64,000 nt of DNA from Spinacia oleracea (lineage: Eukaryota > Streptophyta > Magnoliopsida > Caryophyllales > Amaranthaceae): assembly GCF_020520425.1 (NCBI RefSeq), contig NC_079491.1:31921449-31985448 (forward strand), given 5' to 3'. This document shows positions 29,219 to 64,000 of the stretch, one piece after another; within the stretch, counting starts at the first letter, position 1, and each line of letters opens with the position of its first letter. The translations under genes were made by a program, and so were the position numbers. The notes beneath the pieces are model-generated. The model did not search any database, was not told the DNA's origin, and was given only the letters and a program-made list of their open reading frames with translations.

Positions 29219-30325
29219 TATCATTTACAATCTAATATACATATATAAAGGAGGCATATTTGCTGAAAGATTAGAGCGCCACCTAGGATTACTAATGGTT
29301 TCGGCCAATAAAAAATAAGATTTCTAATTTCTTTTTGAATTTAAAAAATCAAGTGCCACCGTAGATAATTAATTAGGTGCCACGTAGATATTTTAATTAA
29401 TTAATTATTAATATATACAACTCCATCGAAAATCAAACACTCTAATAATTAAAAAATAATCGTTTTCCACGTAGATAATTAATTAGGTGCCACATGATAT
29501 TTTAATTACTTAATTAATTACTAATATATACAACTCCATCTAAAATCAAACACTCTAATAATTAAAAAATAAATCTAAAATAAAATTCATCCAAAATCAA
29601 ACAATAATCTAAAATAAAATAAATAAAATTCAATTTAAAATCAAACATTAATCCAATATTAGAGCGCCACGTATAAAAATCTAATGGCTTTGGCCAATGG
29701 AGAAATATTAGAGCGCCACCTAGGATTACTAATGGTTTCGGCCAATGAAAAATAATATTTTCTAATTTCTTTTTGAATTTAAAAAATCAAGTGACACGTA
29801 GATAATTAATTAGGTGCCACGTAGATATTTTAATTAATTAATTACTAATATATACAACTCCATCGAAAATCAAACACTCTAATAATTAAAAAATAATCTA
29901 TTTCCACGTAGATAATTAATTAGGTGCCACGTAGATATTTTAATTAATTAATTACTAATATATACAAATCTGTCTAAAATCAAACACTCTAATAATTAAA
30001 AAATAAATCTAAAATAAAATTCATCCAAAATCAAACAATAATCTAAAATAAAATAAATAAAATTTAATTTAAAATCAAACATTAATCCAATATTAGAGCC
30101 CACATAGAAAAATCTAATGGTTTCGGCCAATGAAAAATAAGATTTCAAAATTAATTTTGAATTAAAAAAGTCGAGTGCCACGTAAAGAAATGATTAACTT
30201 TCACATAGATATTTTTTATTAATTATTTATTAATATTATGCATATACAATTTTATCCAAAAACAAACACTTTCATAATAAAAAAAAATCTAAAATGAAAT
30301 TCAATGCAAAATCAAAAACTAATCT

Positions 30326-30333
<8 letters not shown>

Positions 30334-30393
<60 letters not shown>
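30334..30393. repeat. (TA)n microsatellite
   Basis: About 30 uninterrupted TA units just inside a Helitron-like 5' end, where other copies have a short ATATATA. Confidence 0.95.
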
Positions 30394-30399
<6 letters not shown>

Positions 30400-30935
30400 G
30401 GCATATTTGCTGAAACATTAGAGCGCCACCTAAGATTACTAATGGTTTCGACCAATGAAAAATAAGATTTCTAATTTATTTTTGAATTAAAAAAATCGAG
30501 TGCCACATAGATAATTAATTAGGTGCCACGTACTCCGTAGATATTTAAATTAATTAATTAATTACTAATATGTACAATTCCATCCAAAATCAAACGCTCT
30601 AATAATTAAAATATAAATCTAAAATAAAATTCATCCAAAATAAAATACTAATCTAAAATAAAATTCAATCGAAAATCAAACATTAATCCAATATTAGAGC
30701 GCCACGTAGGAAATCTAATGGTTTAAGCCAAAGAAAATTAAGACTTCAAAATTATTTTTGAATTAAAAAGTCGAATGCCACGTAGATAAATAATTAGGTG
30801 CCACGTAAATATTTTTATTAACGAATTATTAATATTTCTTATATACAATTTCATCCAAAATCAAACACTATAGTAATTAAAAAATAAATCTAAAATGAAA
30901 TTAATTCCAAAATAAAAAATACAAATATAATCTAA

Positions 30936-31544
30936 TCTAATACATATATAAAGGAGGCATATTTGCTGAACTATTAGAGCGCCACCTAGGATTACTAATG
31001 GTTTCGGCCAATGAAAAATAAGATTTCTAATTTATTTTTGAATTAAAAAAATCGAGTGCCACGTAGATAATTAATTAGGTGCCACGTAGATATTTAAATT
31101 AATTAATTAATTACTAATATACTCCATACAATTCCATTCAAAATCAAACGCTCTAATAATTAAAAATAAATCTAAAACAAAATTCAATCCGAAATCAAAC
31201 ATTAATCCAATATTAGAGCGTCACGTAGGAAATCTAACGGTTTCAGCCAATGAAAAATAAGACTTCAAAATTAGTTTTGAATTAAAAAGTTGAATGCCAC
31301 GTAGATAAATAATTAGGTACCGCATAAATATTTTTAATAAATAATTATTAATATTTCTTATATACAATTTCATCCAAAATCAAACACTAGAATAATTAAA
31401 AAATAAATTTAAATTGAAATTCAATCCAAAATAAAAAAAATCAATTTAATCTAATATATAAAATATAACAGTTGATATATGTAGGAGTTTTATTTTAACG
31501 TAACAATTTAATAGAAATCGTGCATCGCACGGGCTAAAATCTAG
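30936..31544 (+). mobile_element. Innermost Helitron-like copy
   Basis: Runs from TCTAATACATATATAAAGG to the perfect hairpin and CTAG at 31,541-31,544, preceded by A and followed by T. It is the best-defined single non-autonomous unit of the array, about 0.6 kb. Confidence 0.6.
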
Positions 31545-31982
31545 TATATAAAATATAGCAGTTGATATATTTAGGAGTTTTATTTTAACGTAACAATTTA
31601 ATAAAAATCGTGCATTGTACGAGCTAAAATCTAGTAATTAATAAAAAAAACCAAGTCTAAAATGAGAACGGATTATTAGTTTGGGCCCTTCCGTAATCAA
31701 AATTGGATGGTCAAGATGATTCCGTGTTATTAATAGAATTTTCATAAATCAAATAGCTAAAGTAAATGAAAATTATTTAGAAGTAAAGAGCACGAAACCA
31801 ATTTAATAATTTGCATAGTTAAAAAATGGCATTAATGACGCGGAAATGATGTAGGCCATCCGATTTTGATATCTAAGATTCTAAGAGTCCATTTTAATTC
31901 TCAGTTCTCATTTTAGATTATGGTTCTTCCCTGATCATGAATTCATGCTTAACATATAAACGTATGAAATTATTATATCGGC

Positions 31983-36311: not shown

Positions 36312-37934
36312 GCTATACCCGGGTACAGCCAAAGCTGGCTGTACCCCCATCCAAAACGATGTCGTTTTGTGTTGTTTAAAATGAACATTAATATACTGGT
36401 ACAAAAATGAACATTTACTATTTCGAAAATGAACATTTATTTATTTATTTGGAATGAACATTTACTATTTTGGAAATGAACATTTATTTATTTATTTGGA
36501 AATAAACTACAAAAATGAGCATTTACTATTTCGGAAATGAACATTTATTTATTTATTTGGAATGAACATTTACTATTTTGGATATGAACATTTATGTATT
36601 TATTTGGAAATAAACAATATAGGCGCTTGTAAAAACATAAAAGACCAATGAAGTGAACAATTTCATTATGAACATTAACCATATATTTATTGTGAACAAA
36701 CAAATAAACAAGAAAGAACAAATAATTCAACAAAAAAGAACAAACAATATAAAAAAGAACATAAAATTCCAGAAAAAAGAACAACTAAAACAACAATTAT
36801 GAACAATTTTATGATGAATTTTAAAACCAACATGAAAGAACAAACAATAAAACAAGAAAGAACAAATACCGGTACAAAAATGAACATTTACTATTTCGAA
36901 AATGAACGTTTATTTATTTATTTGGAATGAACATTTACTATTTTGGAAATGAACATTTATTTATTTATTTGGAAATACACTACAAAAATGAGCATTTACT
37001 ATTTCGGAAATGAACATTTACTATTTCGGAAAAGAATATTTATTTATTTATTTGTAATGAACATTTACTATTTTGGAAATGAACATTTATTTATTTATTT
37101 AGAAATAAACAATATAGGCGCTTGTAAAAACATAAAAGACCAATGAAGTGAACAATTTCATTATGAACATTAACCATATATTTATTGTGAACAAACAAAT
37201 AATTCAACAAAAAAGAACAAACAATATAAAAAAGAACATAAAATTTCAGAAAAAAGAACAAACAATACAACAATTATGAACAATTTTATGATGAATTTTA
37301 AAGCCAACATGAAAGAACAAACAATACAACAAGAAAGAACAAACAATAAAGCAAATAATTATTATGAACAAACAAATAAACAAGAAAGAACAAATAATTC
37401 AACAAAAAGAACAAACAATATAAAAAAGAACATAAAATTCCAGAAAAAAGAACAAACAATACAACAATTATGAACAATTTTATGATGAATTTTAAAGCCA
37501 GCATGAAAGAACAAACAATACAACAATAAGTTTGATGAATGAATTTAAAAAACAACAAGAAATAGCAAACAGTACAACAAGAAAGAACAAACAATACAAA
37601 AAGAAAGAATAAAAGATTAATGAAGAATTTAATTATGAACATTAACCATATGATTATTATAAACAAACAAATAAACAAGAAAGAACAAACAATATAAAAA
37701 AGAACATAAAATTCCAGAAGAAATAACAAAAAATACAACAATTATGAAAATTTGATGATAAATTTAAAAAACAACATGAAAGAACAAACAATACAACAAG
37801 AAAGAACAATCAGTACAATAAGAATGAACAAATAGTACAATAAAAAAGAACAAACAGTCGACAAGAATGAACAAACAATATGAGCGCGTCGTTTTTGGGG
37901 GGTATAGCCAGAGCTGGCTGTACCCGGGTACAGC
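36312..37934. mobile_element. TIR element filled with GAACA-rich tandem repeats
   Basis: Ends are inverted over about 45 bp: left GCTATACCCGGGTACAGCC then CTGGCTGTACCCCCATCC; reversed right GCTGTACCCGGGTACAGCC then CTGGCTATACCCCCC. The core (about 36,380-37,900) repeats units such as ATGAACATTTACTATTTTGG and AAGAACAAACAATACAACAA, in blocks of about 0.3-0.5 kb. No transposase. ORFs here are low-complexity artefacts. Superfamily not assigned; no TSD found. Confidence 0.65.
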
Positions 37935-42459: not shown

Positions 42460-44220
42460 CGTTATCAGCACCAACCCTAACCAACTGAGTAATTGAGAAA
42501 TATTGGCAACCCGAAAATCGTTATTAAGGTATGTGTTTAATTGAATTTTGTTGCCGACAATCGTTATTAAGGTATGTGTTTAATTGAATTTGGGTATGAA
42601 ATTCTTGAAATACTTTGCCATGTTTGGACACATGTTATTTTAATATGCTCCAATTTTATTTTATGTCATGTTTTATGTGACGGTTTGATTTTCCTTTTAA
42701 TTTTATCTGTTTGATCAATCGTCGGTTTCTCCCCAAGATTATATCAGTGTTATTTTAATTGGTAATCAATGTTTTTCATGGTAAAAGAATATTTCAATGA
42801 TGATATACATTGTATAATGGTTTCTCATGTTGGGTCTGTTATTTCTCACTCCGTACAAGGTAATTATTTTGTCAAAGATATGTTCATGATAATAGGACTA
42901 ATATAATGTTATAGGCCCTGTTCGGCAAAACTAGCGGTAGCGGGTAGCTTTTAGCGGTTAAGTAGCGGGTAGCGATCAGAGTAGCGGGTAGCGGTCAACG
43001 AGTAGCGGGTAGAGGTTAGCTGTCAAGGTAGCGGTTGATAGTATGAGTGTTTGGCAAAAGTAGCGGTTGAAGTTACAAAAAATAATAAAAATAATATATT
43101 TACTTCAAAAATGAAAAAAATTCTATTCATTAACGTGATTAGTTTTAGGTAACCATGCTCAAATATCAAAGTAATGTAAGAAAGACTTCATACACATAAA
43201 AGTAAAATACTTACATTGTTTCTCTTAATAAATAAATAACGTCAAATCGATCTTGTTAAATATAGTTTAAAATAATTAAAAGTTTCTTTTAGCTTTTCAT
43301 AAATCATCAGCAATACGGTCACGGATAACCTTCATTTTAGTACAACTCTCTCCATTTTTCCCACTTGAAACGACATGAACATCAGGAAGCTCGAATGAGG
43401 GTATAAAATTTGGATAATCCTCTAACACTCGAAAAAGGGGATCATTTGGAGAATTTATTCTAATGTAGTTATGTAGTGCAAATGTAGCAACCATAATTTG
43501 TATTTGCGTCTCAATACTAAATTGTGGCATTTTAGTAAGTATCTTCCACCTCTGCTTCAAAACTTCGAAAGATCTCTCGATGCAACTTCGAAGAGACGAG
43601 TGCCATCTATTAAAAGTTTCTCGGTCATTTTTTGGAGGCACATACTCAAATTGTGACTTGTGATACCTTATTTTTGGATATGGTAGTAGATAACCTTTTC
43701 GATCTGGATACCTTTTATCAGCCAAGTAATACTGTAGACACCTACTTTTGTCCCCATTCCCGAAAGGGAAGGTTCAATGATGAAAATATAAATCTCCACT
43801 TGACAACGCATCTCCTATAAAATAACGAATCTCAATTCCCCTTTTCATTTCACCCGAAACCTGCTATTTATAGAAACCTGCTATTTATAACTATTTATGG
43901 AAACCTGCTAAAAATAGCAACTGCTGTAATCGGTAATTGTTAAAAGTGGCAAGTCATAAAAGATAGAAACCTGTCTGAATTAGGTGTTGCACTCCAACAT
44001 AAATCCTAAATGAGATAGAAATTGCGAATGAATCCTATTCCTAATATGATTCGAAAGTAAGAGTCACGTATTAATTAAAATCCTAACGAGCCTAGAGTTC
44101 GTAACGGGCCCAGACGCATCCCGTCACAAGGTTAATACGCACTAAAAGACTCAATTAAATCTCAAATACTCCGGATTCTAGGAATCCGAATCTGACTAAG
44201 AAAAAAGGCCCAGATCCTAT

Positions 44221-44279
44221 TTTCAACGCCTGGTTCTGGGCGCCGAAATCTTCGGCGCCCAGGCCTGGGCGCTGAAAAT
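44221..44279. repeat. GC double-palindrome module 1 (5' LTR, U3)
   Basis: Two back-to-back dyads: AACGCCTGGTTCTGGGCGCC, then TTCGGCGCCCAGGCCTGGGC with GCTGAAAA. The module ends 73 bp upstream of the LTR TATA box. Confidence 0.9.
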
Positions 44280-44352
44280 ACCTGGTACGTGTTTTTTCCT
44301 AATTCCTCGTGGATTAGAGTTCTACAATTCTATCTTTCCACGAACTCTTTTC

Positions 44353-44360
44353 TATAAATA
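44353..44360 (+). promoter_or_regulatory. LTR TATA box
   Basis: TATAAATA within TCTATAAATAGGGCC; the matching site in the 3' LTR is at 54,755-54,762. Confidence 0.75.
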
Positions 44361-45221
44361 GGGCCTTAAGTTCGACGTGAAAAGGACACACAACACACAA
44401 TTATTATTCTGAGTATTGACTCTAAACCCCTAAGCCTAAGCCTCACGCTGCAAAACTGATCACGCGTTCTATCGCAATCGATCCATAAATCGAACAGAAC
44501 GTATCCTGTCCCATAATTTGAGATTCGTTAAATAAAAGGAGAAATAGCAAAGTCAAAGTGGTTAGTTTTCTGAGAAACGTGACGCACCTCTCAAGGGTGC
44601 GTCGTAATGTGTCCCTTTTCCATGGTTTAATTGCTTTCCTCGCCCTTTTATGAACTGTTAAACTAACTAAAATCTGATTGTTCGATCACGCTTAATAAAT
44701 ATGATATTTTTGGGAAAATGGATTATCATGCTAGGTCCCTTAAAACAATCTAAATCAGATAATCGCGCTCAATCTAGTACTATATGTTGCATATTATTAA
44801 AATCAAATCAGATTAGTTTAATAGTTAACGCATGTCCCTTCAATTATTTATGCTGAGCTAGTAAGGATATCCTGCCTCTGGAGTTATCGAAGAGAGAGTA
44901 CTCCTCTCGGTAGTTACAGTCCCCCGAACCCTCAATCTCTACCCTGCGGGTGTACGTTGAGCGATCCCCACCACCAGGGATCACAAGGGAACCTACGGCC
45001 GTCGTGGTCAAACATAATTGCACTCCCTTTATGTCACGATAACCGGGTTTTGTCAGTTTTTCTCATTGTCGTTAAAAACTGAATGGCGACTCTTATATTA
45101 CTAGTCAATTGGGTGTAAACTCACAGGAAATCCAATTACACTTGATTTGACAAAAAGAAGCGTCACACCCACGAGGGGCGAGGTCACGCATTAGCCTCGT
45201 GCTTTTTCGACCCCCTCACAG

Positions 45222-45239
45222 TGGCGACTCCACTGGGGA
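45222..45239 (+). promoter_or_regulatory. Primer-binding site
   Basis: TGGCGACTCCACTGGGGA starts two bases after the LTR end. It is of the Ogre/Tat type, usually matched to a tRNA-Arg; the tRNA identity is from family knowledge. Confidence 0.75.
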
Positions 45240-46018
45240 TAGTGAAGGAGATACTCGTGCTTGTAGGTAATCAAAATAGCCGAAGGGTGAAACGATCCTA
45301 CCCCGCGTTTATTTCCCCATCAAGTTGGGACGACCTGAAAATCAGCATATTAATGTGAACGGACAGAACTGCATAACGAATCTTGGCTCCCTTGGTGTTT
45401 CATCTCGGGAGTCGGGACTAAGGATACCCATCGCCAACCGGGGGGTGCATACGCTTCGAATGTTGTCCACTCGGCACTTTCGCTAGTAGTACACCCGTGC
45501 CAAACCCAATCGTTCGCTCATTAGGTCCCTCTCGCCTGCATGCCCCCTTGGCTTGCACTTGCGGGTTGGCCTCTTGAGCAAAATTCGTCTGTTGAAGACA
45601 CTACCTCGACCGGGGCATGTGTTGGATCTACGATAGAAGCGGTACCAAGCCAGGCGCAAATAACTACCCATTGAAGCCTATCATAAACTACATGACATAT
45701 TATTATTGCCTCATGATGGAATGTTAGTTATGTGTAGCGAAATATATGATTGTGTGTGACAAACTATCCTAGAAAAACCAACGACCTTAAAAAACTGCCC
45801 AAACATTCATAAACCAATTTGCCAAAGAGTTATACCGAAATACGTGTTCCGCAAACCCGAACGATCGCCACAAAAATAAGCGACGCTCGGGATGGCCTGA
45901 AAAGAATCCCACAAACGCTGCACGACGCGTAAAGGACGTTATTAGGAAAGCACGCAAAATCGAAGTCGCATAAACAAAAGTAGACGCGAACAGAAAACGA
46001 GAATCAGCCAGGGACGTA

Positions 46019-46075
46019 TTTTCAACGCCCCTGGCTGGGCGCCAGAATTTCTCACGCCCTACGCTGGGCGCTGAT
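46019..46075. repeat. GC double-palindrome module 2 (leader, upstream of gag)
   Basis: CAACGCCCCTGGCTGGGCGC then CACGCCCTACGCTGGGCGCT; the second dyad has decayed. It lies 0.55 kb before the gag start. Confidence 0.8.
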
Positions 46076-46619
46076 GTTGCTGCTTGGCCTTATGGTCAGG
46101 CGCAGCAGCCTCGGTGCCCGCGCAAAAGGAAAATACGTAGCAAAAAAACCGTTCGTAAAAAGAATTGCTACGAGGGCGTAAGAAAAGCACTCGATTCTAA
46201 AAAGCGACTCATAAAAAATAAATAACTCTTTGTGTCGTTGTTAGGCCTCCTACGACGACAATGCTCGGCACCAAAACCGAACATGCTAATAATTATGAAT
46301 GCCACACGGGCAAGTGTTTCGAAAATCCAAAGAATGACCAAAGAAAGAACTAAAAGTGTACCAACAAAAGAAAGAGTGAAAAACCAATAGAGAGAGTCGA
46401 AGTCTAGACTAAGTAATACTTGTAACTTTGGGACCTAAACTTTAGCTTATCTTATGCATAGGACTGGTCCTGCCACTTGGTGCCGATCAGGAAATCAACG
46501 GTTAGTGCGCCTCAAAGATACATCGCCAACACCAGGTTTAGTGACTCCAAGCTCCGTGCGTCATCCCTCATTTCAAGGATCTCCGCTTCCCCAATTAACC
46601 TCGATTCGCACCCTCAAAC

Positions 46620-47411
46620 ATGTCCATCGAAGAATTGCAAGAGCAGATGGCTCAAATGACCCGACTCATGGGCCAACTGAAAATGGAAAACGAAGCCTTA
46701 GCGGCTGCACAAGCCAAAAACGACCTCGATAAAGAGAAGAGGATTGAAAAAATGGTCCTACAGCAAACCATGGGGAGCAAGTACTTCTCCCTCGATCCTG
46801 AACCTTTTCCTGGCAAACTACCAGAAAAGTTTAGTTCATCTGACTTACCAAAGTTTAAAGCCACGGACAATCCCCGTGATCATCTATTGAGCTTTGTGAA
46901 TTCCATGAACTTGAAAGGCGTGGACAAGTCCATGTATTTACCTGCCTTTCCTTTGTCCTTGGAACCTGTGCCGCTCAAATGGTACTATCACCAGGACCCT
47001 AAGCTCTTCCCCACTTGGGAAGACTTTGTCAATGTCTTCATCAAGCAATACTCGTCGAACATGGATTTTCAAGTCACCATGCGCGAGCTGGAAGTTCTCT
47101 TCCAAAAGAAAAATGAGGGTTTCACAACCTACTTTGCTAGATGGAGGGATCAGGCGGCCCAGCTAATCAATAGGCCTCCCGAAACAGAATTGGTCCAAAA
47201 ATTCATTGACAGCCTGGACCCGGCCTACAGACAGCACCTTAGGTACCTGGGACTTGACACTTTCAAAAGAGTTTATGATGTGGGAATAAAGATCGAGGAT
47301 GATCTCGCAAAAACAATACAAAGTAAACCCGCATACAAAAGCAATACCTACAACAGGAGCAACACATCCCAAGCCCAAGAAGTCCATGCCGTAGAGGAGA
47401 ATCCCGCCTGA
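46620..47411 (+). pseudogene. Ogre/Tat gag, capsid part
   Basis: 263 codons from MSIEELQEQMAQMTRLM, with an N-terminal coiled coil (about residues 1-45). The Retrotrans_gag capsid-like domain follows: FKATDNPRDHLLSFVNSM, FPLSLEPVPLKWYYH, FPTWEDFVNVFIKQY, NEGFTTYFARWRDQAAQL and LVQKFIDSLDPAYRQHLRYL. It normally forms the particle. The frame stops at 47,409, while the downstream homologous region continues in other frames. Gag is thus shortened by a frameshift, though the capsid part is intact. Confidence 0.85.
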
Positions 47412-48350
47412 AGAAGCCCTGGAAGATGGGTCCGAGACCGAAAGTTTGCCCACTCGGGTCGACTTTGGTACAAGCCTTTGAAAGACTAACCAATCAAGGA
47501 AAGTTGAGACCTATAGGCCCCACCCGTGACCCTCCTGTCAAGGGCAAATATTGGGTTGAAGGTACTTACTGCAAATTCCATCAAGGAAATGGGCATGACA
47601 CTGAGCTGGAATCTAAAACATACGATCCAGGACATGATAGAGGATGACGTGATACCTCTCCCTAACGTTGGAAAACCCAACAACAACAAGAGCCCACTCG
47701 GCTCTTGTCACATCTCTCTCGACCAACCAGAGAACTTCGACCCCACGGTGTATATTACACCTCAAGGTGCACCACTCATTGTGGTCCCTATGGATCGAAT
47801 CGAGAGGGAAGTGTGCGGTGTGTGGGATGATGATGCTGAAGATATTTACCTATCTCAAGTGTCGGGCGAGGACCTCTTTACTGAAACTTGGCCCGGGCAT
47901 GCTCTCATTGACACCACCCCTCAGGAGCCCGAGGTCGACAACCTCACCCGATCTGGAAGAATATACCAACTGGATATTCGCCCACCTCCTACGGACGATA
48001 TCCCAGTTAGGCAAACTCCTGAGAATGGACGGCACACCACCGTCGCAGAAGTCATTGAAAATCCTCTCTTGAAACAACTAAAAAGAACCAAGGTCGAGAT
48101 TACCATCTGGGATCTCATGTGTACTTCAAAGGAACATTGCGAAAAGCTTATTCGCTCACTCGACCTCATCTCAGTACCTACAGATATCACACCTGACTCA
48201 CTGGTTATCCATGTCACGAGACATGCCGGAGAAAAGGCCATAGTTTTCACTGACAAAGACTTGCCCAAAGAGGGGGGGTGCTCACAACAAAGCCCTTTAT
48301 CTAGTGGTTGGATGCAAAGGACAAAACATCCCCCTAGCGCTCGTAGATAA
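47412..48350 (+). pseudogene. Ogre/Tat gag C-terminus and linker, frameshifted
   Basis: Pieces in two frames: FERLTNQGKLRPIGPTRDPP and a zinc-knuckle-like YCKFHQGNGHDTE in frame 2, then KHTIQDMIEDDVIPLPNVG in frame 3. The change lies near 47,610, where a Cys of the knuckle is lost. The rest, to TDKDLPKEGG, is an open linker ahead of the protease. Confidence 0.7.
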
Positions 48351-48642
48351 CGGTTCGGCGGTCAATGTTTGCCCATTGCGAACCGCCCATTGCTTGGGGC
48401 TAGGAAACGATGACTTCCAAACCTCCACGCAAGGGGTACGAGCTTATGATAACTCCCGAAGGCCTGTGTTGGGAAAAATCAACCTTACCATACAAACCGG
48501 GCCTGTGGCACGCACCACGGAGTTTCAAATAATTGACATCAAGCCCACTTTCAACCTCCTCTTGGGGCGACCTTGGCTCCATGACTTAGGAGGTGTGGCT
48601 TCTACCTTGCACCAAATGGTTAAATTAACCATAACGGGGTAA
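48280..48642 (+). pseudogene. Ogre/Tat aspartic protease, frameshifted entry
   Basis: Reads ALYLVVGCKGQNIPLALVDN, GSAVNVCPLRTAHCLGL, then FNLLLGRPWLHDLGGVASTL. The active-site triad is D-N-G rather than D-S/T-G. The upstream frame meets this one at a run of seven G (about 48,271-48,277), a likely indel. The LLGRPWLH motif is typical of Tat-lineage proteases. Confidence 0.75.
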
Positions 48643-48683
48643 TACTAGAAATCCGCGCCCCTCCTCTCGACGTCAGTTGTACT

Positions 48684-49418
48684 ATGGTTGGAACGGCCGG
48701 AACTGCAGACGACCTTTACGGGTTTCAAATGGAAGAAACAATCCAGTTCATCGAAGATTACGATCCAGCATTCCTAGACCCGCATGCATCCCGAGTCATC
48801 CCTAGAATGCTGTTAGCTCAAGGTTATTTCCCTGGAACCCCATTGGGCATAAGGAAGAAGGAATGCGCATTCCATCCTTTACCCAAAAAATCTACTCACT
48901 TTGGCTTAGGCTATGAACAAACGGAGGAAGATATTGCTGACCGCCTGTCTAGGCTACGCCTTAACAAGGCCAAACAAACCACCCTCCTTCCCCCATATCA
49001 AAGAACCCTTAACGGGATGTTCGTTCGGGAAGGAGAAGGACACCCATGCTGTGATTTCCCTGAACCCTTCGTTCAGGATGGCTTGCTAAAACCAGGATTT
49101 GAAATCTTCTATGACTGCCACACCTTGGATGAGGCACCCCACCTCACCAAGACTAAAACAGCTGAAATATTGGACGACCAGGCTCTATGGACATTGTTTA
49201 ACGAATCGAGGCCTATGGAGGACGAGACTGTGACGACTACCCTAGCTTTACAAGATGAAGGTTTCGATCCAACCCGGTTAATCGCTCCTGCATCAACACT
49301 AGAAGAGATCGAGAACGGATGGGTGAAGACATATCAGTGGGTCAATGCAAAAGGAATAGAATTCAAGATGAGTACCGGTGAAGGACCAAAGTTTTACGAG
49401 ACTAAACCCAAGGCTTGA
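48684..49418 (+). pseudogene. Region between protease and RT with G-patch-like motif
   Basis: 244 codons open from a Met at 48,684. It contains RMLLAQGYFPGTPLGIRKKE, like the G-patch-type segment found before RT in Ogre/Tat polyproteins, and ends FKMSTGEGPKFYETKPKA. It would normally lead into RT, but the sequence ends in a stop and non-coding DNA. It has no clear start of its own and lies in a different frame from the protease. Confidence 0.6.
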
Positions 49419-50757
49419 GCCACATAGAGCACCGTAGTAAAAAGCGCCTAGTAGTTCTTTAGATTGGTAGAAAAATAATAAAGACTTTAGATGGTCCTAA
49501 GACCCCTTAGAATATAGGTCAAGTTTGTTTCAGTGTGTTTTCCTTACTTTCCAAATTAATAAAGGCGTAATATTTCCCCTAAAAATTTATTCTAACACTA
49601 AGCAAACACTAAATGTACTTGCAAAAATACAAAAATAAAGAGGCGGCCCACTCTAGGCCCAACAAACGAGGCCCATTCGGTCTTGAAATAATGCCATGGG
49701 AACCAGTTCCCGAAAACCCACAAAATAAACCGCACCATCCCGTTCATATCCCCAAAACCTAAAAAGTCAACCAGTGTCATCATAAAAGTCAATCCATGCA
49801 ACCCAAAGAAATCAAAGGAAATCAAAATCCAAAACAATGCAAATGTTACCAAAAAAAAAAACAGATTCATAAAACATAATTCCATCATACCCTGAACCCA
49901 CCCAAAAGCCTACACAAAGATTTTCATATCTTCCTTACCCTAACTCCATTTTTAAAGCCGTTTCGAGTCACGGATAGAAAAAAATAATCCGGACAAAAAT
50001 GCATCTCACGCTAACACTCAAAAAAGCCTCCGAAATAGCGTCAAAATCAATTTTTATACAAAAAAAGGGCATAACACTAAAACGAAAAAAAGAAATAAAT
50101 GCAAGAACACGTGAAGAAAAACGTCAAAAATGACCGCCAGAAATCATTTTCAGCGCCCAGGGCTGGGCGCCGAAATCTTTGACGCCCCAGCCTGGGCGTT
50201 GAAACTCTCTGCCTGCCTAAATTTTTTAGAAGTGCTCGTCATTTTATCCACACATAACGGAAAAATAACGAACACTTGGGGGGTACAACACGTATCCAAA
50301 TAGGCTCACCAAAAAATATAGCCATACAAGAAGTAGTCGAATTTCATTTTTTACGCGACTTACGGCAAACAAAAAACGGCAGACGAAAATAATGATAATA
50401 CTTCACTCATTTGACCGGTTAAGTAATATGCTACCACCTCAGGGCATATCTATTAAATTCTGGCATCCTAGAACTTATTCTAGCTAGAACTACGCGCGAC
50501 CTGATTCTGACAAGATACGTAGGCAATCCTTACCAAGGATTCGGTCCAATAAAAAAAACAAACATACATAAATTGTGCAAAAAGTGTTAGACATATAAAA
50601 ATATAAAAAAAAAGGAGGAGAAACAAAAAATGAAAATGAAAAATAAAATACGCCTTTATTGAAAAATAATAAGAAGGAAAACAAAGTGCTAAGAAATGAA
50701 AAAAAACAAACACAACTGAAATAAATGAAGGGCGCCTACACCCTAGCAAGAACTACA
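49419..50757. other. Spacer between sense gag region and antisense gene
   Basis: No RT/RNase H/integrase motif on either strand. Contains GC module 3 at 50,148. Short T-rich ORFs near 50,480-50,750 are not convincing. Confidence 0.5.
50148..50204. repeat. GC double-palindrome module 3 (between convergent genes)
   Basis: CAGCGCCCAGGGCTGGGCGC, then GACGCCCCAGCCTGGGCGTT. The first dyad is perfect. It lies 0.55 kb beyond the antisense stop. Confidence 0.9.
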
Positions 50758-52568
50758 CTACTCTAGTTCTTCCGGATCATCAAATAAAGTCTTGTAGAGG
50801 GCAATGTTCGCAGGATCCACCCCCACAGTCTTTTGCGCTGCCCCAATATCAATCTCCATAAGAACCGGCTCCTGGACACTAACTTCCAAAGATGCCAAGG
50901 CTTCAGAAACATTCTCAGTTATAGCCCGCTCAGCCTCAAGGGCACAGACAATGGTGGGAGAAGGATTATTATCATCAACTAGACTAGTCACTGTTTCTAC
51001 AAGCGGCTGAGCCTTCCTAACCCATACATTGTTCCGGCGACGATCTCCGCGAGAGCTTGCATTTCTTTTAACAACAGCAGGCCCCTTCATTTTAGGCATC
51101 TTTTTAGGCCTGAAACTAGAACGGGGAGGAACTTCCTTTCGCTTTCGATCAGGACGAGCTTTCACAGTCTTAATACCATGAGTACGAGGTTTGGCAGAAT
51201 CAGGACCCTCATACTTAACACGAATACGAGGTATCAAAAGCTCAGCCGACTCCCCATTTCGAGCCTCGGTCCTCACAGCTTTATCATCGGAGCTCATCCA
51301 CAACTTGTAGTTTTCAGAAAGACCCACAAAGCCATTTGTAGCTACGGCCCAACGCGGGAGACCATCATAATACTTAGCCCATGCTAGAACTCGTGCTTGT
51401 GAAAAGGCCGCTACCTTAGGTGGTACCGTATCAGAAAAGGGGATAGTCTGCCTTAAACCGTATTGACGCATGACTCGGTAAGGGAAAATATAAATGGGCC
51501 GAGATAGCCCCAACAAAGAAACATAAACCGATACATCAGATGCCCCCGTCATAGTAGTCAAACCCCACCATGGTACCACCCACTTAATAGAACAAATGCC
51601 ATAAGTAAAAAAGGAGGCCCATTCGGCCTCGTCCTGGCCTTGGTGCAAGTATTTTCGTACCCAAGGCTATAGGGCGATAATGTTTAGGATCGGCAGGAGC
51701 TTCCAAGAGTCTAAGCCGTTCCACGAGCCAAATCTGCAAAAAACGGGTACGATCAAAAAATAATAATAAAAAGAAAACGGTTCATGGGGCGCAGTTTCAA
51801 CGCCCAGGACCAGGCGCCGAAAATTCCAGCGCCCATCCCTGGGCGCTGAAACTCAGCCCCAAGACAGGACGAATAAAAAATGTGTATGCAAAAAAATTTG
51901 TACGTGCGCAAGAAAAAAATCGATTACCTGCAGTAATAGGGGCTTCCCTTAAAATATTCAGATTTGGCATCCTTCTTCAGCTCATCCGCACTCAGCAAAG
52001 TCTCGGCAACAACCAACGGCATAATAGAATAGCAACTTTCCATCTGACTAATCAAGGGGATCAACCTTATGTCACCGAACTCACCATTGTTATTCGACAG
52101 CAAATAATGATTCAACAAGCAAAATACAAGGGCTCGAATATTCAATTTCTGTTCGGTCATATTCTTACTAGGCCTAAAGTGGTGTTTCACAAGTTTTGCC
52201 AAATTAACCTCATCACCTACAACAACTTCAGCAAGCATGTTAGCATCTAGTCCTAGAAAAGCCCCTATGGTTGTTTTACTCTCTTCAATAGTGCCAGGAG
52301 TGGCAGGGGTAGCATTAGTAGGATAACCAAGGATCGCAGCAAATTCATCTGGCAAAGGACATATTTCGTTGCCCCGAAAGACAAAAACATGATGATCGGA
52401 ATCCCAAAAGCTTAGGGCTGCGTGCAGAAAATTATAGTCAATGTTAATTTGTTGTAAGCCTAAAAGTGCCTCTAAGTGGTATTCTTTCAACAAAGCCTTT
52501 TCTGTAGGATTAAGGGCCCGTAGCCAACGCCTGACAGCCCGTTGGAGTGAGAAAGTGGGAATCGACAT
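50758..52568 (-). pseudogene. Antisense plant-mobile-domain-like (DUF7745-type) gene, two exons
   Basis: Exon 1 is 52,568-51,928: MSIPTFSLQRAVRRWLRALN, then ALSFWDSDHHVFVFRGNEIC and PLPDEFAAILGYP, and ends at a GT donor. The intron (51,927-51,734) contains GC module 4. Exon 2, from 51,733, gives IWLVERLRLLEAP, then in another frame VRKYLHQGQDEAEWASFF, IKWVVPWWGLTTMTG and YIFPYRVMRQYGLRQT, and a basic tail (RPDRKRKEVPPRSSFRPKKM). The pattern matches the plant mobile domain found in many plant transposons. A 1-nt shift near 51,680 seems to break this copy. Both ORF halves are otherwise long and open. The function is unknown. Confidence 0.6.
51795..51851. repeat. GC double-palindrome module 4 (antisense-gene intron)
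   Basis: CAACGCCCAGGACCAGGCGC, then CAGCGCCCATCCCTGGGCGC with TGAAA. Lies wholly within the intron of the antisense gene. Confidence 0.9.
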
Positions 52569-52648
52569 GACAAAATCAAGGAGTAATTAAAACACAGCAA
52601 AGAAAGAAGGAAATTGAGAGTGATGGAAAATAGGGACGTATCTAGCCT

Positions 52649-52658
52649 CTATATATAG
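52649..52658 (-). promoter_or_regulatory. TATA box of the antisense gene
   Basis: CTATATATAG, about 80 bp upstream of the antisense ATG at 52,568, leaving room for a 5' leader of about 50 nt. GC module 5 starts 80 bp further upstream. Confidence 0.6.
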
Positions 52659-52738
52659 TTGAACGCATCAAGTGACATCCTGATCCCATTCGGAAACGCG
52701 TTAAGAAATCCGAAAGTCAAAATTCGCCAGGAAAGGAC

Positions 52739-52796
52739 TTTCAGCGCCCAAAGCTGGGCGCCGAAATATTTAACGCCCAGCCTTGGGCGCCGAAAA
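52739..52796. repeat. GC double-palindrome module 5 (antisense promoter)
   Basis: CAGCGCCCAAAGCTGGGCGC, then AACGCCCAGCCTTGGGCGCC. Its distance to the antisense TATA box (80 bp) is close to the 73-74 bp seen in the LTRs. Confidence 0.9.
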
Positions 52797-52799
52797 TGC

Positions 52800-53719
52800 A
52801 GCCCAAGGCCCAGATTTCACAAAACGCGGAGCAGGAAAAGACTAAAAACCGTGTTGCTAGACACGAGGCCCTATGTACAATTAAGATCAAGCCCAAAAGC
52901 ACCTTTAAGCTCCCAATTAGCAAAAATGAATGGTAAAACTTGGTCGAAACTTAGACTTGTCTCACGAAACATATATGTACACTTTTCAAAACAAATATAA
53001 AAAATATCAAGGTCATTCTTCGAAACACCAAAAAATGTTGTTAAGTCGTTGGTTTCTCAAATAAAAAATGTTTGTCTGTCAAAGGATTAAATCGGGCCAA
53101 GCTAAACCGAATGATATTAAACTTTGTCACCCGAAGACTGAAGTCGCACCCCATGACTTCGCCAAAGTAGCACATCACTATGAAAGGTCGCTCGCACATA
53201 CGAGCTCGACCCCAAACATGATTAAAAGACGTTATGAAGTATGCGAAAAATGACCACCAAAGCCCGAGTGCTTGGGGGCTCGCGAAAAGTATACTCCAAC
53301 AGAGAGCGCGCAATCCAAATCACATTCCCGGGCTGCGCTATACGCCGTCCCATGTTTGGATGATCTCAAAAGAACAGGTTCGACCTCAGAAAAGGGTCGT
53401 CATTGACATTTGTACATGGTCCTCTGATCAAAGACCAAGTAGTGGCAAAAATCGAGCCATAAAGACTAGCTCAAAACCACGAAAGCAGACGGTCACAAGA
53501 CAAAGGTCCGTCTGAACACGTTGTCAGCCCACGTTCAGGTTACAACTAAATTCGAGCATCCCTCGGAAGAATTCGCTCTTGCAAGAATGAACAAAAGAAA
53601 TTCTCAAAAAAAGGAAATCACAATGAACAAAAAATAGAGACTTGCCCACCTCAATCAGGCAAAGATCGCGCCGCGAACCACACAAGTTCCAAATCAAGGA
53701 AAAAACGAATTCAGGGATG
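52800..53719. other. Untranslated 3' region of the Ogre/Tat-like element
   Basis: No convincing ORF on either strand. Moderately GC-rich compared with the flanks. Confidence 0.5.
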
Positions 53720-54120
53720 TCCACCCTTAGCGGACGGGGCTCGCCCACCTTCAGCGGGCGGGTTCTGCGTCACTAGCCGGGCAGGTCCTCAGTTTTCAAA
53801 AAATGAAATTTTCAAAGTTCAAATAAAACAGGCTCGCCATCTTCAGCCGGCGGGGTCTACGTCACAAGCCGCGTAGGTCCTTATTTTCAAATTTCGAAAA
53901 CAAGATTCGTCCACTTTTTCGGACGGGGTGTCCACCCTTAGCGGACAGCTTCGCCATCTTTAGCCGGCGGGGTCTACGTCACAAGTCGCGTAGGTCCTTA
54001 TTTTCAAATTTCAAAAACAAGATACGTCCACTTTTTCGGACGGGGCGTCCACCCTTAGCGGACAGTCTCGCCATCTTTAGCCGGCGGGGTCTACGTCACA
54101 AGCCGCGTAGGTCCTTAGTC
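53720..54120 (+). repeat. 117-bp tandem repeats before the 3' LTR
   Basis: TCGCCATCTTCAGCCGGCGG-type units start at 53,834, 53,951 and 54,068 (spacing exactly 117 bp), with a more divergent partial unit from 53,741. Each unit has GTCTACGTCACAAGCCGCG. Tandem repeats near the 3' LTR are typical of Tat-lineage elements. Confidence 0.9.
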
Positions 54121-54130
54121 GCTGCTCAGT

Positions 54131-54146
54131 CAAAGTGGGGGCTAAC
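54131..54146 (+). promoter_or_regulatory. Polypurine tract
   Basis: CAAAGTGGGGGCTAAC directly before the 3' LTR; the purine core is AAAGTGGGGG. Primes plus-strand synthesis. Confidence 0.65.
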
Positions 54147-55622
54147 TGTAGACACCTACTTTTGTCCCCATTCCCGAAAGGGAAGGTTCGATGATGAAAA
54201 CATAAATCTCCACTTGACAACGCATCTCCTATAAAATAACGAATCTCAATTCCCCTTTTCATTTCACTCGACACCTGCTATTTATAGAAACCTGCTATTT
54301 ATGGAAACCTGCTAAAAATAGTGACTGTCGTAATCGGTAATTGTTAAAAGTGGCAAGTCATAAAAGATAGAAACCTGTCAGAATTAGGTGTTGCACTCCA
54401 ACATAAATCCTAAATGAGATAGAAATCGAACGAATCCTATTCCTAATATGATTCGAAAGTAAGAGTCACGTATTAATTAAAATCCTAACGAGCCTAGAGT
54501 TCGTAACGGGCCCAGACGCATCCCGTCACAAGGTTAATACGCACTAAAAGACTCAATTAAATCTCAAATACTCCGGATTCTAGGAATCCGAATCTGACTA
54601 AGAAAAACGTCCCAAATCCTATTTTCAACGCCTGGTTCTGGGCGCCGAAATCTTCGGCGCCCAGGCCCGGGCGCTGAAAATACCTGGTACGTGTTTTTTC
54701 CTAATTCCTCGTGGATTAGAGTTCTACAATTCTATCTTTCTACGAACTCTTTTCTATAAATAGGGCCTTAAGTTCGACATGAAAAGGACACACAACACAC
54801 AATTATTATTCTGAGTATTGACTCTAAACCCCTAAGCCTAAGCCTCACGCTGCAAAACTGATCACGCGTTCTGTCGCAATCGATCCATAAATCGAACATA
54901 ACGTATCCCGTCCCATAATTTGAGATTCGTTAAATAAAAGGAGAAATAGCAAAGTCAAAGTGATTAGTTTTCTGAGAACCGTGACGCACCTCTCAAGGGT
55001 GCGTCGTAATGTGTCCCTTTTCCATGGTTTAATTGCTTTCCTCGCCCTTTTATGAACTGTTAAACTAACTAAAATCTGATTGTTCGATCACGCTTAATAA
55101 ATATGATATTTTTGGGAAAATGGATTATCATGCTAGGTCCCTTAAAACAATCTAAATTAGATAATCGCGCTCGATCTAGTACTATATGTTGCATATTATT
55201 AAAATCAACTCAGATTAGTTTAATAGTTAACGCATGTCCCTTCAATTATTTATGCTGAGCTAGTAAGGATATCCTGCCTCTGGAGTTATCGAAGAGCGAG
55301 TACTCCTCTCGGTAGTTACAGTCCCCCGAACCCTCAATCTCTACCCTGCGGGTGTACGTTGAGCGATCCCCACCACCAGGGATCACAAGGGAACCTACGG
55401 CCGTCGTGGTCAAACATAATTGCACTCCCTTTATGTCACGATAACCGGGTTTTGTCAGTTTTTCTCATTGTCGTTAAAAACTGAATGGCGACTCCTATAT
55501 TACTAGTCAATTGGGTGTAAACTCACAGGAAATCCAATTACACTTGATTTGACAAAAAGAAGCGTCACACCCACGAGGGGCGAGGTCACGCATTAGCCTC
55601 GTGTTTTTTCGACCCCCTCACA
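54147..55622 (+). repeat. 3' LTR, Ogre/Tat-like element
   Basis: 1,476 bp, collinear with the 5' LTR. It lacks 12 bp near 54,300 that the 5' copy has. TATA box at 54,755. Confidence 0.9.
54623..54680. repeat. GC double-palindrome module 6 (3' LTR)
   Basis: Same as module 1 apart from one base (GGCCCGGGCG instead of GGCCTGGGCG), a change that makes the inner dyad a perfect palindrome. Ends 74 bp upstream of the TATA box. Confidence 0.9.
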
Positions 55623-56720
55623 AATACTTACCTATCAAATATCAAATTAGATTATATCAAAAAAAATTAATCATATATACAAAAAATAAAATGCCTTAAA
55701 TAAATCATTCTAATTCTACTTTACTGAAGGAATAAAAGTGGTGTACATACCTTCGGGTGGTTTAGGAAAATTCAATTCTAGAGATCCGATTGCATGATGA
55801 AATACACGAGTATCATGTGCTGAACCTTCCCAACCCGCTGCTACAAACGTGAAACACATATCAAAATCACAGGCAGCCAAAACATTAAACGTAGGCAGTC
55901 CTTTTCTTCCTCTATAAGGCATTTGTAGGGGCTCGGGTATGCATGCTGCTACATGTGTACCATCAATACATCCAACACAGTCCTGAAACACATTATAATT
56001 TTTTAAGGTATAAATAAAGTTATTCACATTACAATAATATTAGTAATACAATATTACCTTGAAAAAAGGCATATATCTTGTATCTGTGGATATTTTAGCT
56101 GGGACACCTGTGAAATTGGGATCATATGGCCTTATAATATCATGTGCAAGACCCTTGACCTTTCAAGAAGAAATCGAACTGAGAACTTCATGAATTGCCC
56201 TACTAATAGTATCACCAAAACGTTGAAAACGCTCACCAAGAACCCTATTTGAGACGCCTTGGGCAAGTGCATATAAAAGTATGGCAACTTTCTCGTGTAT
56301 AGACATCTTACCACTAGCTTTTAATCCATATTTCGATGATAAGTCCTTACATAATTAATCTCAAAAATAACGGTGGCTCCATTCTAAATGGATTGACACA
56401 TCGAATAGGATGACCAGTCAACACTTCTTGTACCCACATTTCTCCCGCTAGAATCGAAGTCATGCATGGTTCCTTGTAAATGTATTTATAATAATATATA
56501 GACATCAAAGACATTGTATATGCGATTGCAATCAAAATTTTACGTTGGCTTTCGTCATCAACATCCATATTATATTATAACTAAAATTGTTATAAGTGAC
56601 ATATAAAAGAGACGCCCTTTAAAAAATAAAATGGAGAAACAAAATTAAAGTATTTCATAATAACAATCAATTTGTACTAATATCCATTCAAACAAATAAA
56701 ACATTGATCCAATAATTACT

Positions 56721-63795: not shown

Positions 63796-64000
63796 TGTAG
63801 ACACCTACTTTTGTCCCCATTCCCGAAAGGGAAGGTTCGATGATGAGAACATAAATCTCCACTTGACAACGCATCTCCTATAAAATAACGAATCTCAATC
63901 ACCATTTTCATTTCACCCGAAACCTGCTATTCATGGAAACCTGCTAAAAATAGTAACTGCCGTAATGGGTAGTTGTTAAAAGTGGCAAGTCATAAAAGAT
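63796..64000 (+). repeat. Start of another Ogre/Tat-like LTR
   Basis: Begins TGTAGACACCTACTTTTGTC and follows 43,733 and 54,147 base for base with few changes until the window ends. It is a separate insertion (full element or solo LTR) that continues beyond the window. Confidence 0.9.

Follow-up and report, generated by a model that had tools for sequence, protein, structure and literature searches.

A repeated GC-rich double dyad in a spinach retrotransposon family, probably a cis-regulatory DNA site

A long terminal repeat (LTR) retrotransposon at positions 43733-55622 of a 64,000-nt stretch of the Spinacia oleracea genome (NC_079491.1, 31,921,449 to 31,985,448, forward strand; the whole stretch is called the window here) carries six copies of a GC-rich module composed of two dyads of about 28 bp each, set in a 29-bp register. 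The module is present at five positions of the element, where the flanks are unrelated to one another. Judged from its sequence, it is probably a cis-regulatory double dyad that acts as double-stranded DNA and is bound sequence-specifically by a protein, a reading that we favor with some reserve.

The modules, numbered along the plus strand, are located in the 5' LTR (module 1, 44221..44277), in the leader upstream of gag (module 2, 46020..46076), between the last sense open reading frame (ORF) and the 3' end of an antisense gene (module 3, 50148..50204), in the putative intron between both antisense ORFs (module 4, 51795..51851), upstream of the antisense gene (module 5, 52739..52795), and in the 3' LTR (module 6, 54623..54679). 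Modules 1 and 6 are copies of each other, leaving five independent modules. A first-pass annotation of the window had listed the same six sites, and this observation is confirmed, with the second site starting at 46020 instead of 46019 and a length of 57 bp according to our sequence model R1. R1 has 57 positions and derives from 13 modules; five of these are window modules (all except the 54623 copy), whose matches to R1 are therefore given by construction. The R1 search of the window returned exactly six sites (best E value 8.7e-19, worst 4e-16) and no further module at E values up to 10. All six have the same orientation, the plus strand scoring about 10 to 16.5 bits above the minus strand. 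The pattern GCGCCN5CTGGGCGC, with two mismatches allowed, matches the window 18 times, always within the element, where shuffled sequences lead to an expectation of 0.03.

In the majority line of 13 position/lineage representatives, the first dyad reads TTTCAACGCCC-n6-GGGCGCCGAAA and the second TTTnACGCCC-n6-GGGCGCTGAAA. The invariant columns are centered on CGCC and GGCG, with CGG found in some arms only, and the similarity extends about 14 bp upstream of the modules, with a CCAG stretch in many. The observed/expected CpG ratio is 0.88-1.27 in the modules, 1.12-1.39 in the surrounding 200 bp, 0.92 in the element, and 0.61 in the window to the left of the element. As annotated before, none of the six modules overlaps gag, the protease-like ORF, the third sense ORF, or either antisense exon ORF. 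This placement alone is weak evidence, as we estimate its chance at about 1/10 for five modules in an element that is about two-thirds non-coding.

The arms of the dyads are kept between positions while the loops differ, as the first-pass annotation had described; among the copies of one position, this pattern holds at three of the five positions only. Cross-position identity among the 13 representatives is 0.821 for the arms (0.724 once the 16 columns used to find modules are omitted), 0.556 for the centers, and 0.372 and 0.299 for the two flanks. For variability (pi) within positions, copies were gathered per position by their flanks and not by the module. In a smaller set of loci, chosen by LTR similarity or as neighbors, the values for arm, center, and flank are 0.018, 0.103, and 0.036 in the LTR (n = 30); 0.047, 0.173, and 0.070 in the leader (n = 11); 0.018, 0.000, and 0.061 at the position of module 3 (50148-type, n = 5); and 0.020, 0.028, and 0.031 at that of module 5 (52739-type, n = 6), with the arm constraint being weak at the leader and 52739-type positions. 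A larger set includes loci chosen by pattern; its arm values therefore come from the outer arms alone, which lie outside the pattern. Here, outer arm, center, and flank show 0.036, 0.149, and 0.099 in the LTR (n = 48); 0.042, 0.222, and 0.092 in the leader (n = 17); 0.028, 0.042, and 0.120 for the 50148-type (n = 16); 0.000, 0.024, and 0.049 in the intron (n = 7); and 0.053, 0.161, and 0.061 for the 52739-type (n = 10). Pooled over the five positions, pi is 0.032 for outer arms, 0.120 for centers, and 0.084 for flanks.

Resampling of CpG-matched flank columns gave values as low as the outer arms in 44 (LTR), 228 (leader), 4 (50148-type), and 146 (intron) of 5000 draws, and values as high as the centers in 648 (LTR), 31 (leader), 4707 (50148-type), 4127 (intron), and 30 (52739-type), counts that are not clean probabilities because the copies are related and the sites within a module are not independent. 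The sequences thus suggest a clear outer-arm constraint at four of the five positions (not the 52739-type) and fast-evolving centers at two, which supports the earlier suggestion of selection on the dyad at non-coding sites. The comparison of the two LTRs of one element, which rests on five arm changes, found differences at 5/315 sites of arm plus spacer, 3/84 of the centers, and 58/3995 of the flanks (seven pairs on the same strand at a suitable distance, with target duplications checked in the window only and the L045/L046 pair left out). After insertion, the arms change at the flank rate, so they are not mutational cold spots, and since they mutate normally once inserted, the constraint would act in the transposing lineages. 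Arm positions depart from the dyad in 74 of 572 cells, 41 of these being C>T or G>A, the direction that deamination would favor. We regard these data, with small counts and related copies, as good but not final evidence for selection on the arms.

The same data bear on a neutral explanation, in which an early duplication of a 29-bp unit, through slippage or template switching, has merely been passed on since. Duplication does occur in the family (a third half-unit is found in L039 and L041, and two modules stand 73 bp apart in L030), and by eye the first half-units are alike across positions, suggesting that the pair spreads as one unit. However, under mere inheritance, arms and flanks should decay equally between lineages. 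We did not observe this, although decay is equal after insertion, and the CpG-rich arms should decay faster, not slower. We consider this explanation very improbable.

The first-pass annotation had also raised selection on pairing. The module could function as RNA or single-stranded DNA, forming a stem of about 25 bp for packaging, dimerization, or stability, or as a source of small RNAs for host silencing, a role put forward for the palindromes of Sireviruses. The window modules do fold better than their dinucleotide shuffles, with z scores of -2.7 to -9.7 on the plus strand (six tested) and -5.3 to -10.9 on the minus strand (five tested), as do eight modules of other copies on both strands (-3.0 to -9.6). 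Across 13 modules, standard pairs fill 87-88% of the cells on the minus strand and 79-80% on the plus strand, against at most 50% when the partners are slid by 1 to 3 columns, and the minus strand is more stable in 10/13 modules. The better pairing on the minus strand arises in part because A-C mismatches turn into G-U there, an incomplete explanation. It also suits a hairpin that the sense RNA would include five of the six modules, and that a small-RNA excess at the palindromic clusters of maize Sireviruses is cited in the accessible part of PMC10760457.

However, dyad symmetry of any origin yields low free energies, and the covariation expected from selected pairs is absent from the 13 modules. 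The covariation score was reached on the plus strand by 450/500 shuffles for two hairpins and 255/500 for one long hairpin, and on the minus strand by 201/500 and 310/500, respectively. Pairing of the centers, between or within halves, does not exceed chance (between halves 0.53, null 0.52), and the leader module folds weakly on the plus strand (z score -2.7 as RNA and -2.3 as DNA). Position 5 is an invariant A, which is unpaired with position 24 in 11/13 modules; together with the absence of covariation, this indicates that base identity is kept, and not pairing. Kept base identity in turn points to recognition of double-stranded DNA. A conserved hairpin as the selected form was rejected, and a hairpin function of the module appears fairly unlikely to us.

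The location of the modules relative to promoters is a further point against the hairpin. The spacing was taken as the number of bases between the module end and the first base of TATAWAW, in a scan that covered 14 sources. Module 1 is followed after 75 bp by TATAAAT (44353..44359, plus strand), and the spacing is 75 in both LTRs of the window; on the minus strand, TATATAT (52651..52657) before the antisense gene is 81 bp away from module 5. The fixed distances at two promoters reported in the first-pass annotation therefore hold, with values of 75 and 81 in place of 73-74 and 80. Across copies, all 16 LTR modules in the scan precede TATAAAT by 75 (14 modules) or 76 (2 modules) bp, the L049 LTR module, which has a deletion, being missed by the scan, and the distance to TATATAT is 81 bp for each of the six 52739-type modules. 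Fixed spacing is thus restricted to the LTR and, in the gag-type element, the antisense gene. No TATAWAW occurs within 160 bp of the leader modules or of the intron module in the window. Module 3 has a TATAWAW 89 bp away on its minus side, a distance of 89-92 bp recurring in three of five 50148-type copies, and for the intron modules the motif is 29 bp away in three copies and missing in another three. Promoters are one among several kinds of module site, and the earlier statement that the module was copied to every functional junction was too wide. With modules 1 and 5 upstream of the TATA boxes that they flank, and module 4 intronic, DNA fits better than RNA as the acting form.

As double-stranded DNA, the tandem dyads TTTCRRCGCCC-n6-GGGCGCYGAAA would offer four half-sites near GGGCGYYGAAA, to which a dimeric or tetrameric protein would bind sequence-specifically. 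In the LTR, ahead of the TATA box, the module would drive or permit transcription of the sense strand, and the modules upstream of and within the antisense gene would do likewise for that gene. The remaining modules would raise the density of sites, so that one factor would mark the whole element as active chromatin. Protein binding, activation rather than repression, and a host or antisense-gene origin of the protein are what we infer from the sequences. E2F sites were considered and rejected, the half-site GGCGCYGAAA having one base too many.

Several observations weigh against a protein-bound regulatory site. A nearby TATA box is missing for most internal modules, and no TATAWAW lies within 160 bp of the upstream module in the pol-type copies described below. 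Arm constraint is absent from the intron position of the smaller set (arm 0.041, center 0.033, flank 0.037; n = 5), and in the larger set it is not significant for the 52739-type, where 1259/5000 resamplings were as low. The centers are clearly above the flanks at the leader and 52739-type positions only, the LTR difference being not significant, and they are below the flanks at the 50148-type and intron positions of the larger set. The non-independence of copies and sites, the five arm changes behind the LTR-pair comparison, and the expected presence of five modules in the sense RNA count in the same direction, and we know of no plant transcription factor whose site matches the half-site exactly. 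Overall, the interpretation in the first-pass annotation is partly supported, and the idea of a selected dyad withstood a search of the fetched copies for missing arm conservation and for modules inside ORFs.

The module is not confined to the window. The strict pattern GGGCGCCGAAAN7CGCCC, with 16 fixed bases, occurs without mismatch 16,626 times (8,430 forward and 8,196 reverse) in the 894 Mb of genome searched, which include six contigs of 115 to 189 Mb, and the reversed control pattern has zero matches genome-wide. Family flanks were found at 50/50 examined matches, all from the first 4 Mb of contig C1 (the first 30 along the contig and 20 of 100 listed, picked for non-LTR spacer letters). 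Since all 50 lie inside the retrotransposon family, the possibility that the module is a separate mini-transposon was rejected for this sample. Protein and pattern searches of viral_contigs revealed no relatives outside the genome.

Across the family, a near-identical LTR and leader are combined with differing interiors (parts of L048-L050 were left out of the interior comparison). The pol-type copies L039/L040 and L041/L042 encode reverse transcriptase (RT), RNase H, and integrase, start close to where a short stretch matches the end of the third sense ORF in the window, and have no tblastn match to gag. In L039 and L041, RT and RNase H are located ahead of the integrase, which is the gypsy order. 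Five gag-type copies (window, L043, L052, L053, and L056) have no pol match to speak of in the comparisons made, and L045, L049, and L051 are without an ORF of 180 residues. The genome-wide first look gave 8,861 candidates for gag, 145 of them scored, and 13,163 for RT, 148 of them scored; the longest open frame that recurs has about 995 aa at gag and 1,309 aa at RT. From these comparisons, the family seems to split its genes between gag-protease elements without pol, RT-RNase H-integrase elements without gag, and a third, ORF-less kind.

All three kinds carry modules in the LTR, in the leader, and in at least two internal places. In L041/L042, internal modules directly follow the pol ORF and also stand 5' of the antisense ORF. 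No R1 match falls within the gag, pol, or antisense-exon stretches of L039-L058; in L047, the stop-to-stop frame of exon 2 continues through the intron and hence covers the module there. In L039:6794-6879 and L041:8179-8264, immediately behind the pol ORF, three half-units in a row take the place of the pair, and L030:1484-1613 is a local duplication with LTR-type flanks around its two modules. As gag-only, pol-only, and ORF-less elements have the same sites, one factor would switch all of them on together.

The antisense gene could supply this factor. Its two ORFs, exon 1 (51924..52586) and exon 2 (50758..51666), both on the minus strand, are presumably joined by splicing, with splice sites read by eye. 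Exon 1 matches DUF7745 with 26.9 bits (cut-off 26) and the plant mobile domain (PF10536) with 17.2 bits, below the cut-off of 34.9. The pN/pS ratio (gapped and stop codons skipped) is 0.17 for exon 1 (114 silent and 69 replacement differences summed over pairs of six copies), 0.44 for exon 2 (six copies), and 0.46 for gag (0.49 with other ends; five copies), so that exon 1 shows the strongest constraint among the coding parts tested. The third sense ORF (48624..49418, plus strand) has, unlike gag and the antisense exons, a pN/pS of 1.09 with few silent differences (five copies), and its frame may differ from the translated one. It has no match in the Pfam scan, and its C-terminal part is similar to the segment just before RT in both pol-type copies.

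If the DUF7745/plant mobile domain protein bound the modules and shielded the family from silencing in trans, in the way that VANC21 acts for VANDAL21, this would be a special case of the protein-bound site, with the factor supplied by the element. The constraint on exon 1 and the very basic stretch of exon 2 (pI 9.5) fit such a role, and one of the two pol-type copies (L042) has an antisense ORF with a plant mobile domain (47.3 bits, cut-off 34.9). ORF-less elements retain the sites, as expected for a trans-acting factor, and the intron, intergenic, and terminal non-coding sites resemble those described for VANC21 in the available text of PMC5735166. On the other hand, the two element types have very distant antisense proteins (21% identity over 82 residues) and yet similar modules, the antisense ORF L039:8284-8868 has no Pfam match, and no PDB relative of the L042 protein was found at E values up to 1. 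In the accessible parts of the literature on these proteins, plant mobile domains are not established as DNA-binding (PMC9899485 and PMC7156037), and this includes their Arabidopsis host relatives (PMC9899485). The DOWN motif CATGCAGTTT, linked to plant mobile domain proteins in the part of PMC9899485 available, was compared and rejected as unlike the module. From its sequence, the antisense protein qualifies as a reasonable candidate trans-acting factor, but we find it unlikely that it is the protein shielding the family through the modules.

In the literature searched, where most subscription papers fall outside, no description of the module was seen among the listings and the papers cited here, and among the papers listed by a text search with four short module strings, matches were to CAGCGCCCAG only and none was relevant by title. 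The closest known sequences are the palindromic repeated motifs (RMs) of the Ty1/copia Sireviruses. As described in the accessible parts of PMC2829016, these are also palindromic, mostly GC-rich, and repeated within one element; they are found in the LTR upstream of the TATA box as well as upstream of an extra gene, and are kept while the remaining non-coding DNA diverges. The Osr9 RM TTTTCGGACWTRTCCGAAAA has TTTCGG/CCGAAA ends in common with some module arms. In contrast to the 8 to 32 short motifs per element and the CGG-CCG core reported there, we find one fixed pair of ~28-bp dyads per position and an invariant CGCC/GGCG core. The host element has a gypsy-type gag (PF03732) and a partner with RT before integrase, the module is common to three kinds of element, and the LTR holds one pair and no cluster. 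By element type and core, the module is not a Sirevirus RM.

By analogy, the closest working model is that of the VANC21 sites of VANDAL21. VANDAL elements are Mutator-like DNA transposons, unlike the element here, which has LTRs, a 5-bp target duplication, and gag. According to the available text of PMC5735166, the VANC21 motif is likewise short, family-specific, and placed in introns, intergenic, and terminal non-coding parts, its copies being gained and lost by local tandem duplication; unlike the module, it has 9 bp (YAGTATTAY), forms dense arrays, and has a proven binding protein.

Two other retrotransposon systems share features of the host element. In the accessible parts of PMC11963269, Retand gypsy elements are described as having antisense ORFs, frequently accompanied by tandem repeats, in an extended region ahead of the 3' LTR; GAG is missing from some clusters, and RNase H and integrase from one, and a regulatory, DNA-binding role is suggested for the antisense protein; no comparable module was found in these parts. 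Unlike in Retand, the antisense gene here is of the DUF7745/plant mobile domain kind, with no TRP28 in either exon ORF (Pfam scan, E values up to 1), and the LTR has about 1,490 bp compared with 315-1,194 bp in Retand (PMC11963269). In the wheat pair RLG_Cereba/RLG_Quinta, as far as described in the accessible text of PMC11302176, a non-autonomous element gives GAG and shares the LTR and other signals with its partner; Cereba is said there to contribute all proteins, whereas the two pol-type copies here have no gag match.

For the retrotransposon in the window, self-BLAST and the flanks place the 5' LTR at 43733..45220, preceded by the target duplication AATAC, and the 3' LTR at 54147..55622, followed by the same 5 bp (both plus strand); the LTRs of about 1,490 bp are 97.4% identical. 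The plus strand encodes gag (46599..47411, stop to stop; PF03732, E value 6.7e-8) and a weak aspartyl-protease-like ORF (48244..48642; PF13650, E value 0.0078, under the curated cut-off), and the Pfam scan of the sense ORFs detected neither RT nor integrase. A tandem repeat with a 117-bp unit in 2.5 copies (53828..54117, plus strand) lies just ahead of the 3' LTR. Two pieces of a PIF/Harbinger-like transposase gene (DDE_Tnp_4) flank the element on the minus strand at 43297-43773 and 55716-56039. A second family copy starts at the right end of the window (63796-64000) and runs on into locus L051; it has modules of its own and lacks any ORF of 180 aa. At 29265-31636 and 36378-37880, AT-rich tandem repeats form dense arrays in which several periods are nested.

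The comparisons allow for a split consortium, in which gag-only, pol-only, and ORF-less elements stand under one switch, an antisense plant-mobile-domain protein binding the double dyads and keeping all of them expressed and unsilenced. We rate this as distinctly unlikely, and no self-recognition system of this kind is described for an LTR retrotransposon in the literature searched. If true, it would reveal an ancestral DNA target for plant mobile domains. The module in any case offers a defined DNA target for testing DNA binding by retrotransposon-borne plant mobile domain proteins, and a site shared by elements that apparently divide gag and pol is a handle on the co-expression of such partners. 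With the strict site occurring more than 16,000 times per genome, a binder could affect the expression or silencing of a large share of the spinach genome.

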